From positions 1 through 45,783 of the forward strand of contig CANKTP010000003.1 of NCBI GenBank assembly GCA_947486375.1: 45,783 nt of DNA. Direction: 5' to 3'. The position numbers and the translations under genes were made by a program. Below are positions 4,102-44,976 of this stretch, piece after piece. The stretch's first letter is position 1. Each line of letters begins with the position of its first letter. This DNA comes from Candidatus Hydrogenedentota bacterium. Its GTDB lineage: Bacteria; Hydrogenedentota; Hydrogenedentia; Hydrogenedentales; GCA-2746185. The notes under the pieces were generated by a model. That model had not been told where the DNA came from and did no database searches. It worked only from the letters and a program-made list of their open reading frames with translations.

Positions 4102-4187
4102 TGGCATGGGCATCTTGCCCATGAATCCCGGGTTGAGAGTGAAATCGACGTCATCCGACCGTGTGCATGGGCAAGATGCCCATGCCA
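4102..4187 (+). repeat. REP-like element: two hairpins in inverted orientation
   Basis: Two 22-base copies of one unit face each other. The left copy (4102-4123) is TGGCATGGGC followed by ATCTTGCCCATG, and the right copy (4166-4187) is its exact reverse complement. Each copy is itself a hairpin, with stem CATGGGCA/TGCCCATG around a 3-base loop (TCT or AGA). The 42 bases between are not obviously structured. The layout resembles bacterial REP/BIME elements. From memory, similar GGCATGGGC/GATGCCCATGCC units recur between genes in planctomycete-like genomes. The pair sits between the phosphoesterase stop (4085) and the selenoprotein start, where it could attenuate transcription or protect the mRNA end. 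Confidence 0.75.
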
Positions 4188-4204: not shown

Positions 4205-5449
4205 GTGTCCAGGACGCTCATTTCCGTGCTATGCCTTGCAGGCATGGCGTGGGCGCAAGAGGCCGCGCCGGGGCTTCATTGGTATTCGAACTACGAAGAG
4301 GCGCGGGCCGAGGCGAAGCGGACGGACAAGCCGATCTTCCTCGAGTTCCGTTGCGCGCCTTGAATTAACGGGCGCAAATTCGACGCACAGGTTGTGCAGT
4401 CGCCAATCGAATCGCCCCGGGGGCAGCTGCTCTCGAACTATGTCCTTGCACGCATCGTCGACATGACGCCCATCGACATCGGTCTGTTCGATTACGACCG
4501 GCACAACGCTGTGTATATTTTTCTCCTGAACGACGACGAACATATTTACATGCGATACGGCGGGCGCGAACCGGAATCCGGCGAGACGTATCTCAATTTG
4601 GACAGCCTCGAGATCGCGCTGCGCCTGGGCCTGCAACAGCATGCCCGGTATGCGGAGGGTCAATTGCCGCCCCAGCCACGCCCGAGGCCGCTTTTCTCCG
4701 CCGATATCCCGCTGCTCAAGGAGCACGAGATCGACCGGGGCCGCTGCGTTGAATGTCACCTGATCGCTGATTACCAGGCCCAGCAAGGCGAATTAGACGG
4801 CAGTCTCGACAAACTATCGGCGATTTACCGTTCCCCCGACATTAAAAACTTGGGTATTCATCTCGAGATCCCCAAGGGGGTCCTCGTGAAAGAGGCCGTG
4901 GGGGCCGCGGTCGAGGCGGGGGTGCAGGCGGGCGACACGCTGGCCTCGATCGACGGAATCCCCGTCCTCACCTTCGGAGATTTCCTGTACCACTACGACA
5001 AGACGCCCCGGATGGCGAAGACCATCGATATCGGCGTGAAGCGCGGGGAACAAGACCTGGCGCTGCGGGTTAACCTTCCTGAGGAATGGTGGCGGACCGA
5101 CCTCTACTATCGGTTTTGGACGGTCGAGCCGCAGTTGTATTTCTTTGCGAAACCCCTGACCCCCGACGAGAAGGCGGCCAACGGACTGAAGCCGGAGGGC
5201 TTCGCCTCGCGGATCACGGAGGCGGACCCGGGGGCGATTCCGTTGCGCGTGCATGACTTGAAGGAAGGCGATATCATCTTCGCCGTAAATGGGGTGGAAA
5301 CCGACTCGTTTACGCATAACGCCGAGGTATACATGATCTTGAATTTGACGTCGGGCAAGGAAGCCACCGTTTCGATCGTCCGGGATGGCGAACGGATGGA
5401 CAGACTCATCACCCCCTACCGCCAATACTACCGGAAGCAAAAGTCGTGA
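4205..5449 (+). CDS. Selenoprotein: thioredoxin-like CxxU domain, CxxCH haem motif and two PDZ domains
   Basis: One frame runs from 4205 to 5449 if the TGA at 4361-4363 is read as selenocysteine, giving 414 residues. Order: signal peptide (SRTLISVLCLAGMAWA, cleaved before QE); thioredoxin-like domain ~24-150 with FRCAPU at 48-53, so Cys50 and Sec53 form the redox CxxU pair; the thioredoxin strand YIFLLNDDEHIYMRYGGR; a c-type haem motif CVECH at 181-185; PDZ1 ~215-290; PDZ2 ~335-405. A SECIS-type hairpin lies 27 nt after the TGA. I recall the family as Trx7/PDZ domain-containing (seleno)protein, in which cysteine members have FRCxPC. The start is uncertain: GTG 4205 is the first codon giving a sensible signal peptide, with only a weak ribosome site. 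It overlaps the next gene at TGATG, so the two are probably coupled. The role is likely an envelope thiol/haem oxidoreductase; the partner is unknown. Confidence 0.88.
4381..4402 (+). promoter_or_regulatory. Bacterial SECIS element (selenocysteine insertion hairpin)
   Basis: The stem is CGAC (4381-4384) and GCACA (4385-4389) paired with TGTGC (4393-4397) and GTCG (4399-4402), with one bulged A at 4398 and a GGT apical loop at 4390-4392. It therefore has nine base pairs, and the first loop G is 27 nt past the TGA. Known bacterial SECIS elements, such as that of E. coli fdhF, need a short stem with G at the first or second loop position roughly 16-37 nt after the UGA, where SelB binds. All three conditions hold. 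The hairpin lies inside the coding sequence and encodes part of the thioredoxin fold. Confidence 0.82.
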
Positions 5450-6003
5450 TGCGCGCCGCCGCGCTGCTTTCGCTCGTGCTGTTCCTGGCGTCCACAAGCC
5501 ATGCGCAGGGCGCGTCGTCGTCAAAGGCGGAGATCAAACACGGACGCTCGAAGGTCGTCCTGACCTATGCCGCCCGGCTCGAGGGCGATGTACTGGTGGT
5601 CGAGGCCGCGCATGCCCCCGAATGGCACAGCTACGCGATGGACAATGTAATCCGCGCTCAAAAAAAGTCCGGGAAGGAAAAACCCGAATCCGAACTGCCC
5701 ACGCGGATTGCGGTGTCGGGCGGCCTGGCCCTTGCGGGGCCGTGGTATCAGACGGAACCGAAAGATCTCTCGCAGCTCGACATCCAATGGTACACATGGG
5801 GCTTCGAGGAAAAGGCAACATTCGCCGCGAAAGTCGAACGCGGCGAGGGGAACGGCGCGGTCATCACCATAAACGGGCAGGCGTGCAATGCGTCCTCCTG
5901 CGCGATGATCGACGAGACTGTGCTGACGCTGGCGCTTGGGGAGGGGGCATTGATCTCCTCCGGTTTCGATCTTTCGATGCTCGCCGAAGTCATGGCAAAT
6001 TAG
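5449..6003 (+). CDS. Periplasmic DsbD N-terminal (alpha) domain-like protein
   Basis: 184 residues with a signal peptide (MRAAALLSLVLFLASTSHAQ). The mature part resembles the immunoglobulin-like N-terminal domain of thiol:disulfide interchange protein DsbD. It has the usual EWHSYA segment at 58-63 and the cysteine pair in NGQACNASSCAMIDE (Cys146 and Cys151), matching the GxxC...C pair that hands electrons to periplasmic targets. It has no membrane domain or C-terminal thioredoxin domain, so it is a stand-alone domain rather than full DsbD. The ATG at 5449 shares bases with the TGA of the selenoprotein gene (TGATG); a GTG at 5446 is possible but less likely. The tight overlap implies a joint role in envelope redox traffic, which is inference. 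Confidence 0.8.
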   Translation: MRAAALLSLVLFLASTSHAQGASSSKAEIKHGRSKVVLTYAARLEGDVLVVEAAHAPEWHSYAMDNVIRAQKKSGKEKPESELPTRIAVSGGLALAGPWYQTEPKDLSQLDIQWYTWGFEEKATFAAKVERGEGNGAVITINGQACNASSCAMIDETVLTLALGEGALISSGFDLSMLAEVMAN

Positions 6004-7531: not shown

Positions 7532-9085
7532 TCACGGTTCAACCGCGCCGGACGCGGCGTCACCGCCCCCGACAAGGCACACATAGGCCGTGAGGTCGTC
7601 AATTGCGGCGGCGTCCAGCCAAAGCGTGTAGCGTTCGTTAAACCACTCGGTCACGGAGCGAAGCGTCGGCAGGCGGCCGTCGTGGAAATACGGCGCGGTC
7701 TTGGCCGCATTCCGCAGGGTGGGCGTATCGAAGGCCTCGTCCATCGCGTAGACGCTGCCCTTCGCCGCCGTGCCGAGATTGTGCGACTTGCCGTCGACAA
7801 AAAACGTCGCGGGCACATGACAAGAAGCGCAGCTCATCCCGTCCATCCCGGCAAAAGGACGATTGAAGATGGCCTCGCCGCGGAGGGCCTGTCTTGGCGA
7901 AGACGGCGACAAGCGTCCATCGGTCCCGAGATGAGTGACCGTCTCCGGGGCGAAGGTGTCCATGTAGGCGATGAGCGCGTCGAGGGTGCCTTGACCCGGT
8001 TCTACCCCGCCAAACTCCTCGACGACGACGTTGCGCGTGAACTCGGCCAAGCTCGCAATCCGGCCATTTCGGCCGTAGGGTGGCGTTTGGCGAATGCCAT
8101 GAAGATCGGGGATGTCCAGCGGATCGAATAGTCCATTCCCGCCATGGGGGGAAAAGAAACTGTTGCTCGGGTCGACGCCACCCATCCGGGAGGACAGGCC
8201 GGGGACAAAAAACGCAGGGTTTACCCCGCCCTGGTAGTGGCACGTGGCGCAAGAGATGCCGAGCGATCGCGCGGGTTCGCCGAACAGTGCCGGATCCTCG
8301 AACGCGCGTTTGCCGGTCGTTTCAATGTCATTCTCGAACTCCACCGCGCCGTAGCCGTAACCTTTGAACGTGGGCGTGAATGTCACCAGGTACGTGGCGG
8401 GAGGCAATAGCGGAGGCACTACGGCGCTGGGCAAGTAGGTGGCACTCAGACGAGGCAGGGGCGAGAGCGTCTCCATGCCCTCGACAGAAAACAGATCGCC
8501 GAAAACCTGCCGGACGTAGGAGGAGGCGCTCGCGAACGAAGCCAACTGATTCTCCGAACTTCCGAAACGGGGGGCATGCGATGGATCCGTTTGCTCGACT
8601 TCGTGAGCGAAGGCCATCCACAGTCTCTGGGCATGTTCAACGGTTTCGCGGTCACTCGGGAAATTCACAGCGGAATCAAGCGCTTCCGCCACCGTATCGC
8701 CCACGATTCGTGTCGCAGCCACAAAAACGCGCTCCGCCGTGGAGCGGCGCATGACATTAGTAGGGCTGCTGACGCGCGCCTCGGCTTCGAGATCCCCGAA
8801 TGCCGCGGCTACTTCGGCACGAAATGCATCCAATCTCGACGGCGCGGCACTTTCTTCGATGGTCTTCAAGTCGACTGCGATGTCGTCCCACGGCGCCGGT
8901 TTCAAATTTAGGAGAAAGATTAATCGGCGATAGGCCCCGGCGACGGGAGGTACCTGTCGATTGGCGTCCGTCTGTAGAATAAGTGCGCGGCGCGCGGACG
9001 CGAAATCGTCAGCGAAGGAGACATGGGAGGGCCACAGTTGTGCCACGCCAAGCACCAGTAGGGAGGGGAACATACGGCCACGCAT
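7532..9085 (-). CDS. Secreted dihaem cytochrome c peroxidase/MauG-like protein
   Basis: 517 residues with a signal peptide ending near VSFADD. Residues ~27-270 are helical and I do not recognise them. The C-terminal half has two c-type haem motifs, CATCH at 279-283 and CASCH at 419-423, in the arrangement of bacterial cytochrome c peroxidases and MauG-like enzymes, with family segments such as DIPDLHGIRQTPPYGRNGR and FDTPTLRNAAKTAPYFHDGR. Such proteins reduce peroxide or oxidise a partner protein in the periplasm. The propeller gene upstream ends 3 bases before this start, so the two form one operon. The long N-terminal extension is unusual for a simple peroxidase. Confidence 0.88.
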   Translation of the reverse strand: MRGRMFPSLLVLGVAQLWPSHVSFADDFASARRALILQTDANRQVPPVAGAYRRLIFLLNLKPAPWDDIAVDLKTIEESAAPSRLDAFRAEVAAAFGDLEAEARVSSPTNVMRRSTAERVFVAATRIVGDTVAEALDSAVNFPSDRETVEHAQRLWMAFAHEVEQTDPSHAPRFGSSENQLASFASASSYVRQVFGDLFSVEGMETLSPLPRLSATYLPSAVVPPLLPPATYLVTFTPTFKGYGYGAVEFENDIETTGKRAFEDPALFGEPARSLGISCATCHYQGGVNPAFFVPGLSSRMGGVDPSNSFFSPHGGNGLFDPLDIPDLHGIRQTPPYGRNGRIASLAEFTRNVVVEEFGGVEPGQGTLDALIAYMDTFAPETVTHLGTDGRLSPSSPRQALRGEAIFNRPFAGMDGMSCASCHVPATFFVDGKSHNLGTAAKGSVYAMDEAFDTPTLRNAAKTAPYFHDGRLPTLRSVTEWFNERYTLWLDAAAIDDLTAYVCLVGGGDAASGAVEP

Positions 9086-9088
9086 CGG

Positions 9089-10135
9089 CTATTTCCCACC
9101 ATCCGGCACGTCAATGACCACCATGCGCTGGGGCAGCTTCCCGAGTTTCATCCGCTTGATCTCGCGAAGTTCCTTGACCGAGATTATGGACAGGTCATCC
9201 GACTTGCGGTTCGTAACGTACGCGAAGCGGCCGTCCTTGCTGAACTCGATCGAATTCGGATCCGAGCCGACAGGGATTACGCCCTGAAGCTCGAGGGCAG
9301 GATGCGAATAGACCGCCACGAAGTTACCGATACTCCCGTTCGCGAACAGCAATTTCTCGTCCGGGGTGAGCCTAAGGCCGTGGTTCACGTTGTGGGGGTA
9401 GAACTTGGGAAACTCGGTCCCTTCCGGCAAGGGCGGCATCTCGACATGTCTCCTCACGGATCGCGACGACAGGTCGACCACGATGAACCCGTGCAGACGT
9501 GACAACTGAAGGTACATGGTCTTTTCGTCCTTGGTGATGACAAAGGGCCGGACGCCGTCGTCGAAAGGAATCTGGCCGAGAATCTCGAAGGTGTCCGTGT
9601 CGATGATCGTCACATGATCGTTCATCATCGATCCCACGTAAAGCCGTTTACCGTCTTGGGACAACTTGGTGCCGTGGCCCCCGTGGCCGATACCGATCTT
9701 TTTCACCACTTCCCGCTTCGCAACATCGACCACGGCCAGCCAAAGGGAGTCGTAGTAGGGTACAAAAACATAACGGCCATCCATCGAGGCGATCATGTGG
9801 TGGGGCATGCCATCGAGTTTCACGCGCCACAGCACTTCGTCGGTGGCGGTACTGATGGCAATGAGCTCGCCGGTCTCCCCCACGTTGGCCGCGCGAGAGA
9901 GCCCCGCGCTATCGATGCGGTTGACATAAAGCACATCGCCCTTTGGGGACGAGGCGACAAAGTCCATGTATAGACCGACGGAAATGGTCCCGATGATCTC
10001 GTGCTGGGGAATCGAAATCTTGGTGATTTCGCCGCTATTCGTGTTGTGAACGTAAAGGATTTCCGCCGCGTGCGCCAGCGTGCAGAACGACTGCAAGACG
10101 AGGGCGCACCCCCAGGCAACACGATGGAATTCCAT
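9089..10135 (-). CDS. Secreted YVTN/YncE-type beta-propeller protein
   Basis: 348 residues. A signal peptide (MEFHRVAWGCALVLQSFCTLAHA) precedes a single propeller made of repeated units such as ILYVHNTNSGEITKISI, LYVGSMMNDHVTIIDTD and FAYVTNRKSDDLSIISV. Propellers of this type bind partners or serve as subunits beside haem or quinoprotein dehydrogenases, and no catalytic residues can be named. The gene directly precedes the dihaem peroxidase gene with a 3-base gap, so the pair may form a periplasmic complex (inference). It has an ATG start; the 117-base divergent region to the gene at 10253 carries a direct repeat GATCGCGGT (10169-10177 and 10191-10199) that could be a regulator site. Confidence 0.87.
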   Translation of the reverse strand: MEFHRVAWGCALVLQSFCTLAHAAEILYVHNTNSGEITKISIPQHEIIGTISVGLYMDFVASSPKGDVLYVNRIDSAGLSRAANVGETGELIAISTATDEVLWRVKLDGMPHHMIASMDGRYVFVPYYDSLWLAVVDVAKREVVKKIGIGHGGHGTKLSQDGKRLYVGSMMNDHVTIIDTDTFEILGQIPFDDGVRPFVITKDEKTMYLQLSRLHGFIVVDLSSRSVRRHVEMPPLPEGTEFPKFYPHNVNHGLRLTPDEKLLFANGSIGNFVAVYSHPALELQGVIPVGSDPNSIEFSKDGRFAYVTNRKSDDLSIISVKELREIKRMKLGKLPQRMVVIDVPDGGK

Positions 10136-11567: not shown

Positions 11568-11667
11568 GGGAGACGCGGGGCCTTGTGCCATAATTCCTGA
11601 CATTGGCCAAGGCTTGACTCGACTATACGGGACAGTACCCTTTGCATTACCTTCCGGAGGAAGACCC

Positions 11668-12639
11668 ATGTTCTCGATCGTTTCGCGTCCTTCCTGGCAT
11701 CTCGCCGAGCGGCATGCCACGCCCGAATTGCTCCACGGGAACCGGCGCGATTTTTTGAAGGCCCTGGGCGCCGGGGGCCTCGCTTTGTCGGGAATGTCGT
11801 GGGCTTCGGCACAAGAGCCCGCCCCTGCGGCGGCCGAGGCGAATCCCCTTCCGCCACACGAACGCAATCCGAAGTTCGCCGACGCCGGGCGCGTGATGAC
11901 CGACGAAAAATACCCGTTGATGTTTAACAATTTCTACGAGTTCTCGACCCGGAAAGACGGCCCAGCGAAACTCGCCAAGGGATTCAGTCTCGATCCCTAT
12001 TCCCTCGAAGTTGACGGCCTCGTGGAGAAGCCGCTGAAGTTTGACCTCGATCAAATCGAAAAACTCGGCTACGAAGAGCGCGTGTGCCGTTTCCGCTGCG
12101 TCGAGGCGTGGGCCATGACGGTCCCGTGGGCCGGTGTCCCCCTTGCGAAGCTCATCGCCCAGTGCGGGGTAAAGGCCGAGGCGAAATTCGTGGCGTTCCA
12201 GACCTTCCACGATCCCAAGCGTGCCCCCGGCCAGAAGGACACGGCGTTTACGTGGCCCTACCAGGAAGGCCTGCGCATCGACGAGGCGTTGAATGAGATG
12301 GCCTTCGTCGCCACGGGGTTGTACGGCAAACGCCTTGCGCCGCAAAGCGGCACCCCCCTGCGCATCGTGCTTCCTTGGAAATACGGCTTCAAGGGCCCCA
12401 AGAGCGTCGTGAAAATGACTTTCACTGACAAGCAGCCGGCCACGATGTGGAACTCGGCCATCCCCGCCGAATACAAGTTCTACTCGAACGTCGATCCGGA
12501 AGTGCCGCACCCGCGTTGGTCGCAGGCCTCGGAGAAACTCCTCGCCGACGTGGTCGAGCGGATCCCGACGCAGTGGTACAACGGGTATGGCGAGCAGGTC
12601 GCGGCGCTTTACGCGAACATGCCGCGCGAGTTGTATTAA
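11668..12639 (+). CDS. msrP: MsrP-like molybdopterin protein-methionine-sulfoxide reductase catalytic subunit
   Basis: 323 residues. A twin-arginine signal (NRRDFLKALGAGGLALSG, Arg26-Arg27) sends the folded molybdoenzyme to the periplasm. The sulfite-oxidase-type fold carries RFRCVEAWAM, with Cys144 as the expected molybdenum ligand, as in E. coli YedY/MsrP. It also has the conserved tail GPKSVVKMTFTDKQPATMWN. MsrP repairs oxidised methionines in envelope proteins, taking electrons from the haem membrane protein MsrQ. No msrQ is adjacent, so the electron donor is elsewhere or different. A strong ribosome site GGAGG at 11656-11660 stands 7 bases before the ATG and fixes the start. Confidence 0.92.
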   Translation: MFSIVSRPSWHLAERHATPELLHGNRRDFLKALGAGGLALSGMSWASAQEPAPAAAEANPLPPHERNPKFADAGRVMTDEKYPLMFNNFYEFSTRKDGPAKLAKGFSLDPYSLEVDGLVEKPLKFDLDQIEKLGYEERVCRFRCVEAWAMTVPWAGVPLAKLIAQCGVKAEAKFVAFQTFHDPKRAPGQKDTAFTWPYQEGLRIDEALNEMAFVATGLYGKRLAPQSGTPLRIVLPWKYGFKGPKSVVKMTFTDKQPATMWNSAIPAEYKFYSNVDPEVPHPRWSQASEKLLADVVERIPTQWYNGYGEQVAALYANMPRELY

Positions 12640-41972: not shown

Positions 41973-42008
41973 GTCAATCGGGCGGGGGAGCAATGTATAC
42001 TTCGCCCC

Positions 42009-42151
42009 GCAGGCACATGGGAAACCGGCGAAATTCCGGTGCGGGCCCGCCGCTGTGACCGGGTACGAACGCCGCATGCACCACTACCACGCGAGGCGTG
42101 GCGGGAAGGGCGGTCAAGTAGGGTAATCCGGAAGCCAGAAGACCGGCCTGC
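42009..42151 (+). promoter_or_regulatory. Cobalamin (adenosylcobalamin/B12) riboswitch
   Basis: Conserved parts appear in order: GGGAAACCGGCGAAATTCCGG, shown here as GGGAAACCGG then CGAAATTCCGG (42019-42039), then the GCCCGCCGCTGTGACC core (42045-42060) and the 3' B12-box GAAGCCAGAAGACCGGCC (42131-42148). The outer P1 stem is GCAGGC (42009-42014) with GCCTGC (42146-42151). This is the aptamer class that binds B12 and shuts off cobalamin uptake or synthesis genes. It stands upstream of an intrinsic terminator (42213-42261) and the btu-type transporter genes, which fits transcription attenuation. Confidence 0.93.
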
Positions 42152-42212
42152 GAAATGGGAAAATGCCGCCGTCACCGTGGAATGTGCCCGGCGCATCGTG
42201 GACGAAATTCGG

Positions 42213-42261
42213 CGTCCCCGGAATGGGATATTTTTCGCACCCAATCCGGGGACGTTTTTTT
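42213..42261 (+). terminator. Intrinsic terminator of the cobalamin riboswitch
   Basis: CGTCCCCGG (42213-42221) pairs with CCGGGGACG (42246-42254), with an inner TGGG/CCCA helix across a short mismatch, and is followed at once by seven T (42255-42261). The ribosome site GGAAGGGA begins 2-3 bases later. This is the expression platform: B12-bound aptamer should let the terminator form before btuF. Confidence 0.85.
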
Positions 42262-42278
42262 GATGGAAGGGACGATTG

Positions 42279-43199
42279 GTGCAAAAACGGGTCCTCTTTG
42301 TGGCGATTGTTTGCGCCTTCGGCGGAAGCTACCTCGCGAAGCTGTTGCTCTTGAATGCGACGCAGATCGCGCCTCCCGCCCTGCCGGTCGCCACGCCCGC
42401 GCGGATCGTCTCCCTGGCCCCCAGTGCGACGGAAGTCCTCTTCGACTTGGGACTGGGCGATAGGGTCGTGGGCGTGACGCGCTTCTGCGACTATCCACCC
42501 GAGGCGAAACAAAAAACCGATATCGGCGGCTTTCTCGATCCGGATTATGAAGCTATCCTCGCGTTGAAGCCCGACCTTGCGGTAGTCTTGTCGATCCATG
42601 ATGTGGCGGCAAAACGCCTGGGCGAACTCGGAATCCGTACGCTGGTCTTGGAGCACCGGACCTTCGATGGCGTTCTCGAATCGATTCAACTCGTGGGCGA
42701 CTCGTGCGGCGCGGGGCCGAAGGCGGCGGAGGCGCTCGGGACGATCCGGCACCGGCTCGCCGTGATGCAAATCCGGATGCAGGATGTGAAACGGCCTCGC
42801 GTGCTGATTTCGTCGGGTCGATCATACGGGACTGGGTCGATTGGCGAGGTTTATGTCGCCGGGCGCAACGAATGGTATGACGACATTATCCAGCGGGCGG
42901 GCGGGGTCAATGCTTATCAGGACGAGGGCGTCCAGTTTCCGAACGTGGCCGGGGAAGGGCTGCTGCGTCTTGACCCCGAGGTCATCATCGAGCTGGTGCC
43001 GCCTGAGTCCATGAAGGGATCGACACCCGAGGCGATCATCGCGGAATGGAACGCGTTGCCGACGTTGAAGGCGGTCCAGAACAAACGCGTATTCGTCCTC
43101 TCGAATGACTACGTCTCGATTCCCGGACCCCGGTTCATCGATACCTTGGAAGACGTCGCCCGCATCCTGCATCCCGAGATCGATTGGAACGCGCCGTGA
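42279..43199 (+). CDS. btuF: Cobalamin ABC transporter substrate-binding protein (BtuF-like)
   Basis: 306 residues. The N-terminus is a hydrophobic signal or anchor (QKRVLFVAIVCAFGGSYLAKLLLL) without a clear lipobox. The periplasmic-binding fold begins RIVSLAPSATEVLFDLGLGD, the typical BtuF opening, with FCDYPPEAK and IGGFLDPDYEAILALKPDL. Cobalamin specificity is inferred from the riboswitch in front of it; the fold alone could also be a siderophore binder. The GTG at 42279 has GGAAGGGA 7 bases upstream, which favours it over TTG 42276. Its stop overlaps the ATPase start (GTGA). Confidence 0.88.
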   Translation: MQKRVLFVAIVCAFGGSYLAKLLLLNATQIAPPALPVATPARIVSLAPSATEVLFDLGLGDRVVGVTRFCDYPPEAKQKTDIGGFLDPDYEAILALKPDLAVVLSIHDVAAKRLGELGIRTLVLEHRTFDGVLESIQLVGDSCGAGPKAAEALGTIRHRLAVMQIRMQDVKRPRVLISSGRSYGTGSIGEVYVAGRNEWYDDIIQRAGGVNAYQDEGVQFPNVAGEGLLRLDPEVIIELVPPESMKGSTPEAIIAEWNALPTLKAVQNKRVFVLSNDYVSIPGPRFIDTLEDVARILHPEIDWNAP

Positions 43200-43987
43200 G
43201 CGCGGCGGCATTGGAGGCGCGCGAGGTTTCGGTGTCGCTCGGGGGATGCCGGGTGCTCAAGGGCGTCTCGCTCTCGATCGAGAAAGGCGCGTTCGTGTCG
43301 ATCATCGGCCCGAACGGGGCGGGCAAGACGACGTTAATCCGTGCACTGAACGGCATTGTCGATTTGAATGGCGGCAGCGTTCAGGTCATGGGTCAGGCGC
43401 TGTCGACTTACCGCCGGCGCGATTTGGCCAAGATCATGAGCTACGTGCCGCAGGCGGATGGGCGTCATTTTCCGTTCACGGTGTTCGAGTTCGTGCTGTT
43501 GGGCCGATACCCGTACATGAGTCCGTTTTCTCCGGCCACGAAGGAGGATCGCGCCGTGGCGCATGCGGCCTTGGAACGGACCGGGACGGACCATCTCGGG
43601 GAGCGGTCGATCGGCACGCTCAGTGGCGGCGAACGGCGGCAGGTATTCATCGCGGCGGCGCTGGCGCAGGGCGCGTCCATCTTGTTGCTCGATGAGCCGA
43701 CGGCTTTCCTCGATTACCGTCACCGGGTCGAGGTGGCGGCGCTGCTCGAACGCTTGAACCGGGACGAGGGTGCGACGATTGTCTCGGTAACCCACGATAT
43801 CGATGAACAGGTATTGACGTGCAACCGGGTCGTGGCGATCAAGGACGGGATCGTGGTGTTCAACAATGAACCCACGGGGCTCCTTGAACCCGGAGTGCTC
43901 GAGGGAATTTACGACACGCCGTTTCGCCATGTTCACGACCCCGGATCGCGGGTGCCCGTGGTGTTGCCTTCGAGCGCACGGCTATGA
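43196..43987 (+). CDS. btuD: Cobalamin ABC transporter ATP-binding protein (BtuD-like)
   Basis: 263 residues. Walker A is GPNGAGKTT (38-46), the signature is LSGGERRQVFIAAALAQ, Walker B is ILLLDEPTAFLD and the switch His lies in SVTHDI. It matches the FecE/BtuD group of iron-siderophore and cobalamin importers. The GTG start at 43196 shares bases with the btuF stop, and its own stop overlaps the permease ATG by 4 bases, so the three genes are translationally coupled. Confidence 0.9.
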   Translation: MSAAALEAREVSVSLGGCRVLKGVSLSIEKGAFVSIIGPNGAGKTTLIRALNGIVDLNGGSVQVMGQALSTYRRRDLAKIMSYVPQADGRHFPFTVFEFVLLGRYPYMSPFSPATKEDRAVAHAALERTGTDHLGERSIGTLSGGERRQVFIAAALAQGASILLLDEPTAFLDYRHRVEVAALLERLNRDEGATIVSVTHDIDEQVLTCNRVVAIKDGIVVFNNEPTGLLEPGVLEGIYDTPFRHVHDPGSRVPVVLPSSARL

Positions 43988-44976
43988 GCGGGCGAAGCAT
44001 CCTGGCGTGTTTGGCGCTCTTCGCGGTCATCTCGATCGTGTCCATGCCCTTCATCGGCATGGAGGCGGTGCCGCTGGACGCGGTCTTGCATCCCGATGCG
44101 GGAACCGAGTCAACCATCTTTTGGCATATTCGTGTGCCTCGCGTTTTGACGGCGTTTGCCGCGGGCACGGCCCTCGGCGTATGCGGCATGGCGTTTCAAG
44201 CGATCTTTCGGAATCCGTTGGCGACTCCGTTCACGCTCGGCGTGTCGAGCGGGGCCTCGCTCGGCGCGGCCATCGCGCTTCAACTCGGGCTTACGGGATC
44301 GTTCTTGGGCATTCCGGGCACCTCGGCGTTCGCGTTCCTTGGGGCGTTGCTTTGCATCGGGGTCATCTACGGCTTGACCCGGCTCAAGGAGGGGTTCTCG
44401 ACGGCGACGATGTTGCTTGCCGGCGTCGCCATGAGTTTCTTCATATCGAGCGTCATCATGTTCATGCAGTACACGGCGGACTATTACGATTCCTTTCGCC
44501 TGTTACGCTGGCTCATGGGCGGGCTGGGCGAGGTCGGATTCTCCGAGTTTCTCAACGTCCTCCCCTTCGCCGTGCTGGGCGCGCTATCGATGATCTATTT
44601 CAGCAATGAACTGAACCTCTTGACGACCGGCGACGATCTCGCAATGAGCCGCGGAGTCGATGTCCTCCGCACAAAAAAGCTCCTCTTCCTCTCGACGTCG
44701 ATCACGGTGGGCGGCGTCGTGGCGGAATGCGGGCCGATCGGCTTCGTCGGCATGATGGCCCCCCACATCTGCCGGCTCCTCATCGGCCCCGACCACCGCC
44801 TCCTGGGACCGGCGACCTGCCTGTTCGGCGGGGCCTTTCTCGCCGTGTGCGACACCTTCGCGCGGACCGTGATGGCCCCGGCCCAATTGCCCGTCGGCGT
44901 GGTGACGGCCTTTCTTGGGGGGCCGTTTTTTCTTTGGCTGCTGTTGAGCGGCTCGGCGGAACGGCATTTTCCGTGA
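43984..44976 (+). CDS. btuC: Cobalamin ABC transporter permease (BtuC-like, FecCD family)
   Basis: 330 residues with about ten membrane helices. Family marks are HIRVPRVLTAFAAGTALGVC, the segment FRNPLATPFTLGVSSGASLGA, GGVVAECGPIGFVGMMAPHI (the ATPase-coupling loop region) and LPVGVVTAFLGGPFFLWLL at the end. Two copies would form the import channel for cobalamin across the inner membrane. The gene order F-D-C with overlaps is compact. Nothing coding follows for about 180 bases. Confidence 0.92.
   Translation: MSGRSILACLALFAVISIVSMPFIGMEAVPLDAVLHPDAGTESTIFWHIRVPRVLTAFAAGTALGVCGMAFQAIFRNPLATPFTLGVSSGASLGAAIALQLGLTGSFLGIPGTSAFAFLGALLCIGVIYGLTRLKEGFSTATMLLAGVAMSFFISSVIMFMQYTADYYDSFRLLRWLMGGLGEVGFSEFLNVLPFAVLGALSMIYFSNELNLLTTGDDLAMSRGVDVLRTKKLLFLSTSITVGGVVAECGPIGFVGMMAPHICRLLIGPDHRLLGPATCLFGGAFLAVCDTFARTVMAPAQLPVGVVTAFLGGPFFLWLLLSGSAERHFP

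Follow-up and report, generated by a model that had tools for sequence, protein, structure and literature searches.

We describe, on the plus strand of a 45,783-nucleotide stretch of DNA (the window), a gene for a Trx7/PDZ selenoprotein at positions 4205-5449, together with a small partner gene directly behind it. The selenoprotein frame comprises 414 codons with a single internal TGA. It begins with a GTG start and a signal peptide, reads KPIFLEFRCAP-UGA-INGRKFDAQV around the internal TGA, and closes at a terminal TGA at 5447-5449. When the internal TGA (4361-4363) is read as selenocysteine (Sec), it supplies residue 53 of 414, in the motif C-A-P-U. By a naive estimate from the window composition, one stop or fewer in 414 codons would be expected by chance with a probability of 7e-5. 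Pfam places a Thioredoxin_7 domain at residues 26-88, across the TGA, and also recognizes two PDZ domains; no trypsin-like protease domain was matched. A CxxCH motif (CVECH; C181-C184-H185, residues 181-185), encoded at 4745-4759, is a candidate haem c site, although Pfam matched no cytochrome family in the protein, and it is invariant in 19 homologues. Translation and Pfam thus agree with an earlier note, made from the sequence alone, that had proposed one frame on both sides of the TGA with a signal peptide, a thioredoxin fold, a CxxCH motif and two PDZ domains. For the whole selenoprotein, AlphaFold gave a model of moderate confidence (pLDDT 67); a fold search at this level matched only the two PDZ domains in tandem, and its TM-scores were poor. 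A perfect 22-nt inverted repeat (TGGCATGGGCATCTTGCCCATG) with a 42-nt spacer lies at 4102-4187, shortly before the start codon; each arm is nearly palindromic and has a REP/REPIN-type look.

The protein is a member of a known, uncharacterized family, NF041199 (trx7_PDZ_seleno), where it scores 380.7 bits (cut-off 300), with residues 25-399 aligned to positions 2-385 of the 390-position profile. The family is listed as "Trx7/PDZ domain-containing (seleno)protein", with Trx7/PDZ domains and a CxxU motif (PMC13188914), and is also listed in PMC9312934. It was already predicted in 2008, when an ocean metagenome paper described a "putative secreted serine protease MucD" with a CxxU motif (PMC2398784); we read this entry as the NF041199 family because PMC13188914 cites that paper for NF041199. 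The literature examined merely lists these proteins and contains no working hypothesis for the family beyond "redox", and the literature searched does not tie Hydrogenedentota or Bryobacterales to them. The view that conventional gene calling misses such a protein holds in general, and normal annotation would split the gene in two, but the curated model NF041199 already covers the family. New for NF041199 are the invariant CxxCH motif (in the aligned sequences), the SECIS consensus, the UxxU form, the DsbD-alpha-like partner and the adjacency of selA in Acidobacteriota.

The partner gene (5446-6003, plus strand) encodes an exported protein of 185 amino acids and overlaps the stop of the Trx7/PDZ gene by 4 nt. 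It stands directly downstream in every close locus (L019-L022, L060-L077), Acidobacteriota included; no match to it was found beside the two distant loci, L023 and L024. Sequence similarity to DsbD_N is weak, with the window copy under the Pfam cut-off, and the window copy has no NCBIfam match. Its structural model has a pLDDT of 89.5, and the top 15 PDB matches are all DsbD N-terminal domains. The partner is therefore predicted to have the DsbD-alpha fold, an assignment that is weak by sequence and draws on a confident model. Q145, C147 and C152 are invariant, the two cysteines forming a C-x4-C motif. Further along the window, an MsrP gene at 11614-12639 (catalytic subunit of the periplasmic protein-methionine-sulfoxide reductase, 377 bits) places another envelope redox gene a few kb off. 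A MauG/di-haem peroxidase-like protein adjoins a YncE-like beta-propeller protein at 7532-10135 on the minus strand, and a cobalamin riboswitch (RF00174, 87.7 bits) precedes genes for BtuF-like and BtuC-like ABC transporter proteins at 41994-44976.

The internal TGA is shared widely. A six-frame search of related genomes yielded full-length homologues with one in-frame TGA each in G065 (54% identity), G003 (51%) and G001 (50%), and a truncated copy in G005; in the translations of these homologues the TGA falls on the identical codon. A contig scan with the single sequence found no homologue, whereas an alignment-based scan did find loci. Profile scanning of named genomes added 18 loci, some of them in the same assemblies as the related genomes above. 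They come from Candidatus Hydrogenedentota, where the metagenome-assembled genomes (MAGs) PW10.concoct.19 and OFTM269 are among the carriers, from a MAG with the label KSB1 and another with the label Rhodothermaeota, and from Bryobacterales/Terriglobia within the Acidobacteriota. TGA was present in all 17 profile-scan homologues that cover the codon. Altogether, it occupies the same codon in about 20 relatives from Hydrogenedentota and Acidobacteriota (Bryobacterales) at 43-55% identity. A family search of 386 genomes, with seven above the cut-off, gave the same picture, and no plasmid homologue of the gene was found. In the tree, the Sec forms fall into an acidobacterial set and a Hydrogenedentota-plus-KSB1 set, joined by L076, with the two distant homologues on very long branches. 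One of these, L023, has TGT at the Sec codon and thus Cys (FRCVPCRDC), the kind of homologue that the earlier note had hoped to see aligned there. The other, L024, has two TGAs in a UxxU arrangement (FRUVPUVSC); on the minus strand of its genome, G106, the two in-frame TGAs stand nine bases apart at reverse-complement positions 1585-1596. At the level of sequence, we regard the conservation of this codon in all covering relatives, at 43-55% identity, as the decisive point for the reality of the TGA.

The search for a SECIS element just past the TGA also gave a positive result, a hairpin that the earlier note had not picked out. A predicted bSECIS hairpin, CGACGCACA-GGU-UGUGC(A)GUCG, occupies 4381-4402 on the plus strand, as judged by folding and conservation. 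Its core is a 5-bp stem, GCACA/UGUGC, at 4385-4397, with the apical loop GGU at 4390-4392, 26 nt past the UGA, and a minimum free energy (MFE) of -10 kcal/mol. The hairpin satisfies the published bSECIS rules of a 3-9 nt loop with G in loop positions 1-2, a distance of 16-37 nt from the UGA, and an MFE of -7.5 or lower (PMC13188914), and the stability of the 50-nt fold around it does not rise above shuffles. All close Sec copies carry GA(C/T)GCACAGGT(T/G)GTGC directly 3' of the UGA. Where a copy has GGUGGUGC, the innermost pair does not form; the stem is then 4 bp long and the loop has five bases, the second of which is G. The core is nearly invariant at the DNA level, and the window copy preserves the SECIS bases exactly. 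In the UxxU homologue (L024), a single SECIS-like hairpin, GAACA-GGU-UGUUC, follows the two TGAs, and the second stem pair has changed from C-G to A-U on both sides; this one compensatory change is all of the covariation evidence. Synonymous sites tell the same story. Of the 31 fourfold-degenerate columns compared across 16 Sec homologues, just three are invariant, those of codons -1 (CCT), +8 (GCA) and +11 (GTG), and each of them adjoins the UGA or belongs to the stem (hypergeometric 9e-4), whereas synonymous variation is free in the rest of the gene. L067, outside the fourfold set, has CCG at codon -1. Constraint on the protein does not explain this synonymous invariance near the UGA.

These observations bear on whether the TGA might be a genuine stop, in which case the gene would be a pseudogene or else a pair of ORFs, the downstream one beginning at an internal GTG (4394). 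Such a reading would fit the mechanical ORF call, in which a 351-aa ORF begins at that GTG, and the fact that Sec machinery went undetected in the MAG of the window. Nevertheless, translation from 4394 would yield a protein that lacks the signal peptide and the N-terminal half of the thioredoxin fold, and the TGA is kept across about 20 diverged genomes with conserved flanking residues and no other lesion. Together with the exact preservation of the SECIS bases, this makes a genuine stop very unlikely.

The Sec machinery itself presents a mixed picture. In the MAG of the window (3.8 Mb, 253 contigs, 88.7% complete), none of selA, selB, selC and selD was found over the cut-off. Candidates in this MAG were rejected on inspection: Rfam matches to tRNA-Sec were tRNA-Leu, -Ser and -Lys, the best selD ORFs read as ThiL and PurM, and the best selB match, a 415-aa frame that scores 208.8 bits across profile positions 1-266 and stays below the cut-off, is likely EF-Tu. 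The refuting condition of the earlier note was framed for a complete genome that lacks sel genes and so does not apply to this MAG. Parts of the machinery are found in the nearest relatives that carry the gene, so that the search for sel genes proposed in the earlier note was borne out there and not in the MAG itself. selA-selB operons occur in G003, G004, G005 and G065, and selA in G001. Among gene-bearing relatives, selB is present in G003, G005 and G065, with a full selB in two of G001, G003 and G065. tRNA-Sec(UCA) was found in G004, G005 and G065, with no match in G003, which is rated 99% complete. selD was found in G005 only among gene-bearing relatives, with none over the cut-off in G001, G003 and G065, which may reflect gaps or a divergent selenium donor. 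Within the order, selA is present in 15 of 68 genomes: 4 of the 5 with the Trx7/PDZ gene (that is, all 4 other than the MAG of the window) versus 11 of the 63 without it (Fisher p = 0.007). Furthermore, in 12 of the 13 acidobacterial loci (L064-L074, L077) the gene is preceded by selA, either directly or with one small ORF in between.

The absence of sel genes from a MAG that is 88.7% complete raises the alternative that this is a true selenoprotein gene whose decoding was lost in the window species through recent loss of the machinery. Against this, the frame and the SECIS are intact. In addition, one or two assembly gaps could hide the sel genes, since selA, selB and selC lie close to one another: a span of about 6 kb holds all three in G004, and a single short contig does so in G005. 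We consider a recent loss highly improbable.

A further alternative is that the UGA is decoded otherwise, for example as Cys or Trp by a suppressor tRNA, in a lineage that uses no selenium. The failure to find selA, selB or selC in the MAG of the window, and selD in G000, G001, G003 and G065, would be in line with it. These MAGs are fragmented, however, and the relatives have selA, selB and tRNA-Sec, with selA adjoining the gene in Acidobacteriota. Conservation of the SECIS likewise speaks against such decoding. A change of the genetic code as such was rejected because TGA is the ordinary terminator of 7 of the 18 other window ORFs. Decoding of the UGA without selenium thus strikes us as scarcely credible. 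Finally, a Cys codon (TGC or TGT) misread in sequencing or assembly would require only one changed base, but the identical TGA in many independent assemblies from different species led us to reject it as a negligible prospect.

Selenocysteine is therefore the best and a strongly supported reading of the UGA at 4361-4363, given the conserved TGA, the Cys and UxxU homologues, the SECIS hairpin, the synonymous constraint near the UGA and the adjacent selA; the central proposal of the earlier note is upheld by the same evidence. We conclude with high confidence that this Candidatus Hydrogenedentota-like bacterium carries an intact gene for an exported NF041199 selenoprotein; what the protein does as part of a relay is argued more weakly.

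The position of Sec in the redox motif differs from the earlier proposal, which had placed the TGA at the second redox position of a CxxC motif. A profile of the thioredoxin part aligned to 3fk8, 3f9u, 3ira and AGR2/AGR3, and more weakly to DsbD-gamma. These solved thioredoxin-fold proteins have the first, attacking Cys of WCxxC at the place that residue 53 takes in the alignment. The motif is thus Cys50-x-x-Sec53-x-x-(Gly or Cys), in which the usual second Cys is Gly56 in the window protein and most homologues, and Cys in L019, L021, L023 and L024. Judging from these alignments, Sec53 likely takes the nucleophilic position, with Cys50, three residues earlier, as its likely partner.

These features suggest how the gene pair may work. 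SelB with Sec-tRNA would bind the hairpin so that Sec53 is inserted, and the protein would then be exported. In the envelope, Sec53 would stand where a thioredoxin domain of the DsbD-gamma type has its attacking Cys, and the resolving residue may be Cys50, since the usual second Cys is Gly in the window protein. More tentatively, the Sec53/Cys50 pair could exchange electrons with the C-x4-C of the partner. The PDZ domains might dock a substrate or the partner, and the CxxCH may bind haem c as an electron donor or acceptor; its invariance makes haem c a candidate electron source. No transmembrane beta domain was found in either protein. Because the partner appears to have the DsbD-alpha fold and the thioredoxin domain aligns to DsbD-gamma, the pair resembles a DsbD that has lost its membrane domain and kept both periplasmic ends, and together the proteins may form a split DsbD-like periplasmic thiol relay. 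From this we infer a selenium-dependent periplasmic thiol-disulfide relay carried by the gene pair. The fuller version, a two-protein, selenium-dependent split DsbD-like relay (a gamma-like thioredoxin with Sec, PDZ domains and a haem-c-type CxxCH, and a DsbD-alpha-like acceptor) that takes its electrons from cytochrome c, not from cytoplasmic thioredoxin via a membrane domain, is a speculative proposal that we think rather unlikely as it stands. The SECIS, the selA adjacency and the conserved partner make the NF041199 family testable, the prediction being that the envelope of Hydrogenedentota and Bryobacterales contains a thiol relay that depends on selenium.

Among known systems, the protein resembles NF041199 in its full-length match, its CxxU (FRCAPU) and its combination of Thioredoxin_7 and PDZ domains, and no feature excludes membership. 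The VPGUxxT families (NF041382/NF041383) share a related thioredoxin domain and an active-site Sec, but the matches are weak (E about 1e-4 to 1e-5), far below the cut-off and confined to the thioredoxin segment. The PDZ domains resemble those of DegP and RseP, which probably explains why the 2008 entry was named "MucD"; in contrast to the HtrA/DegP/MucD proteases, the Trx7/PDZ protein has a thioredoxin domain instead of a trypsin-like protease domain. The likeness to DsbD lies in the alpha fold of the partner, in the alignment of the thioredoxin domain to gamma and related folds, and in the side-by-side genes. However, DsbD joins alpha, beta and gamma domains in one polypeptide, whereas here the alpha-like and thioredoxin parts are encoded by separate genes with no beta domain. 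Moreover, the Trx7/PDZ protein has Sec in place of the attacking Cys of gamma together with fused PDZ domains and a CxxCH motif, and its partner carries a C-x4-C.
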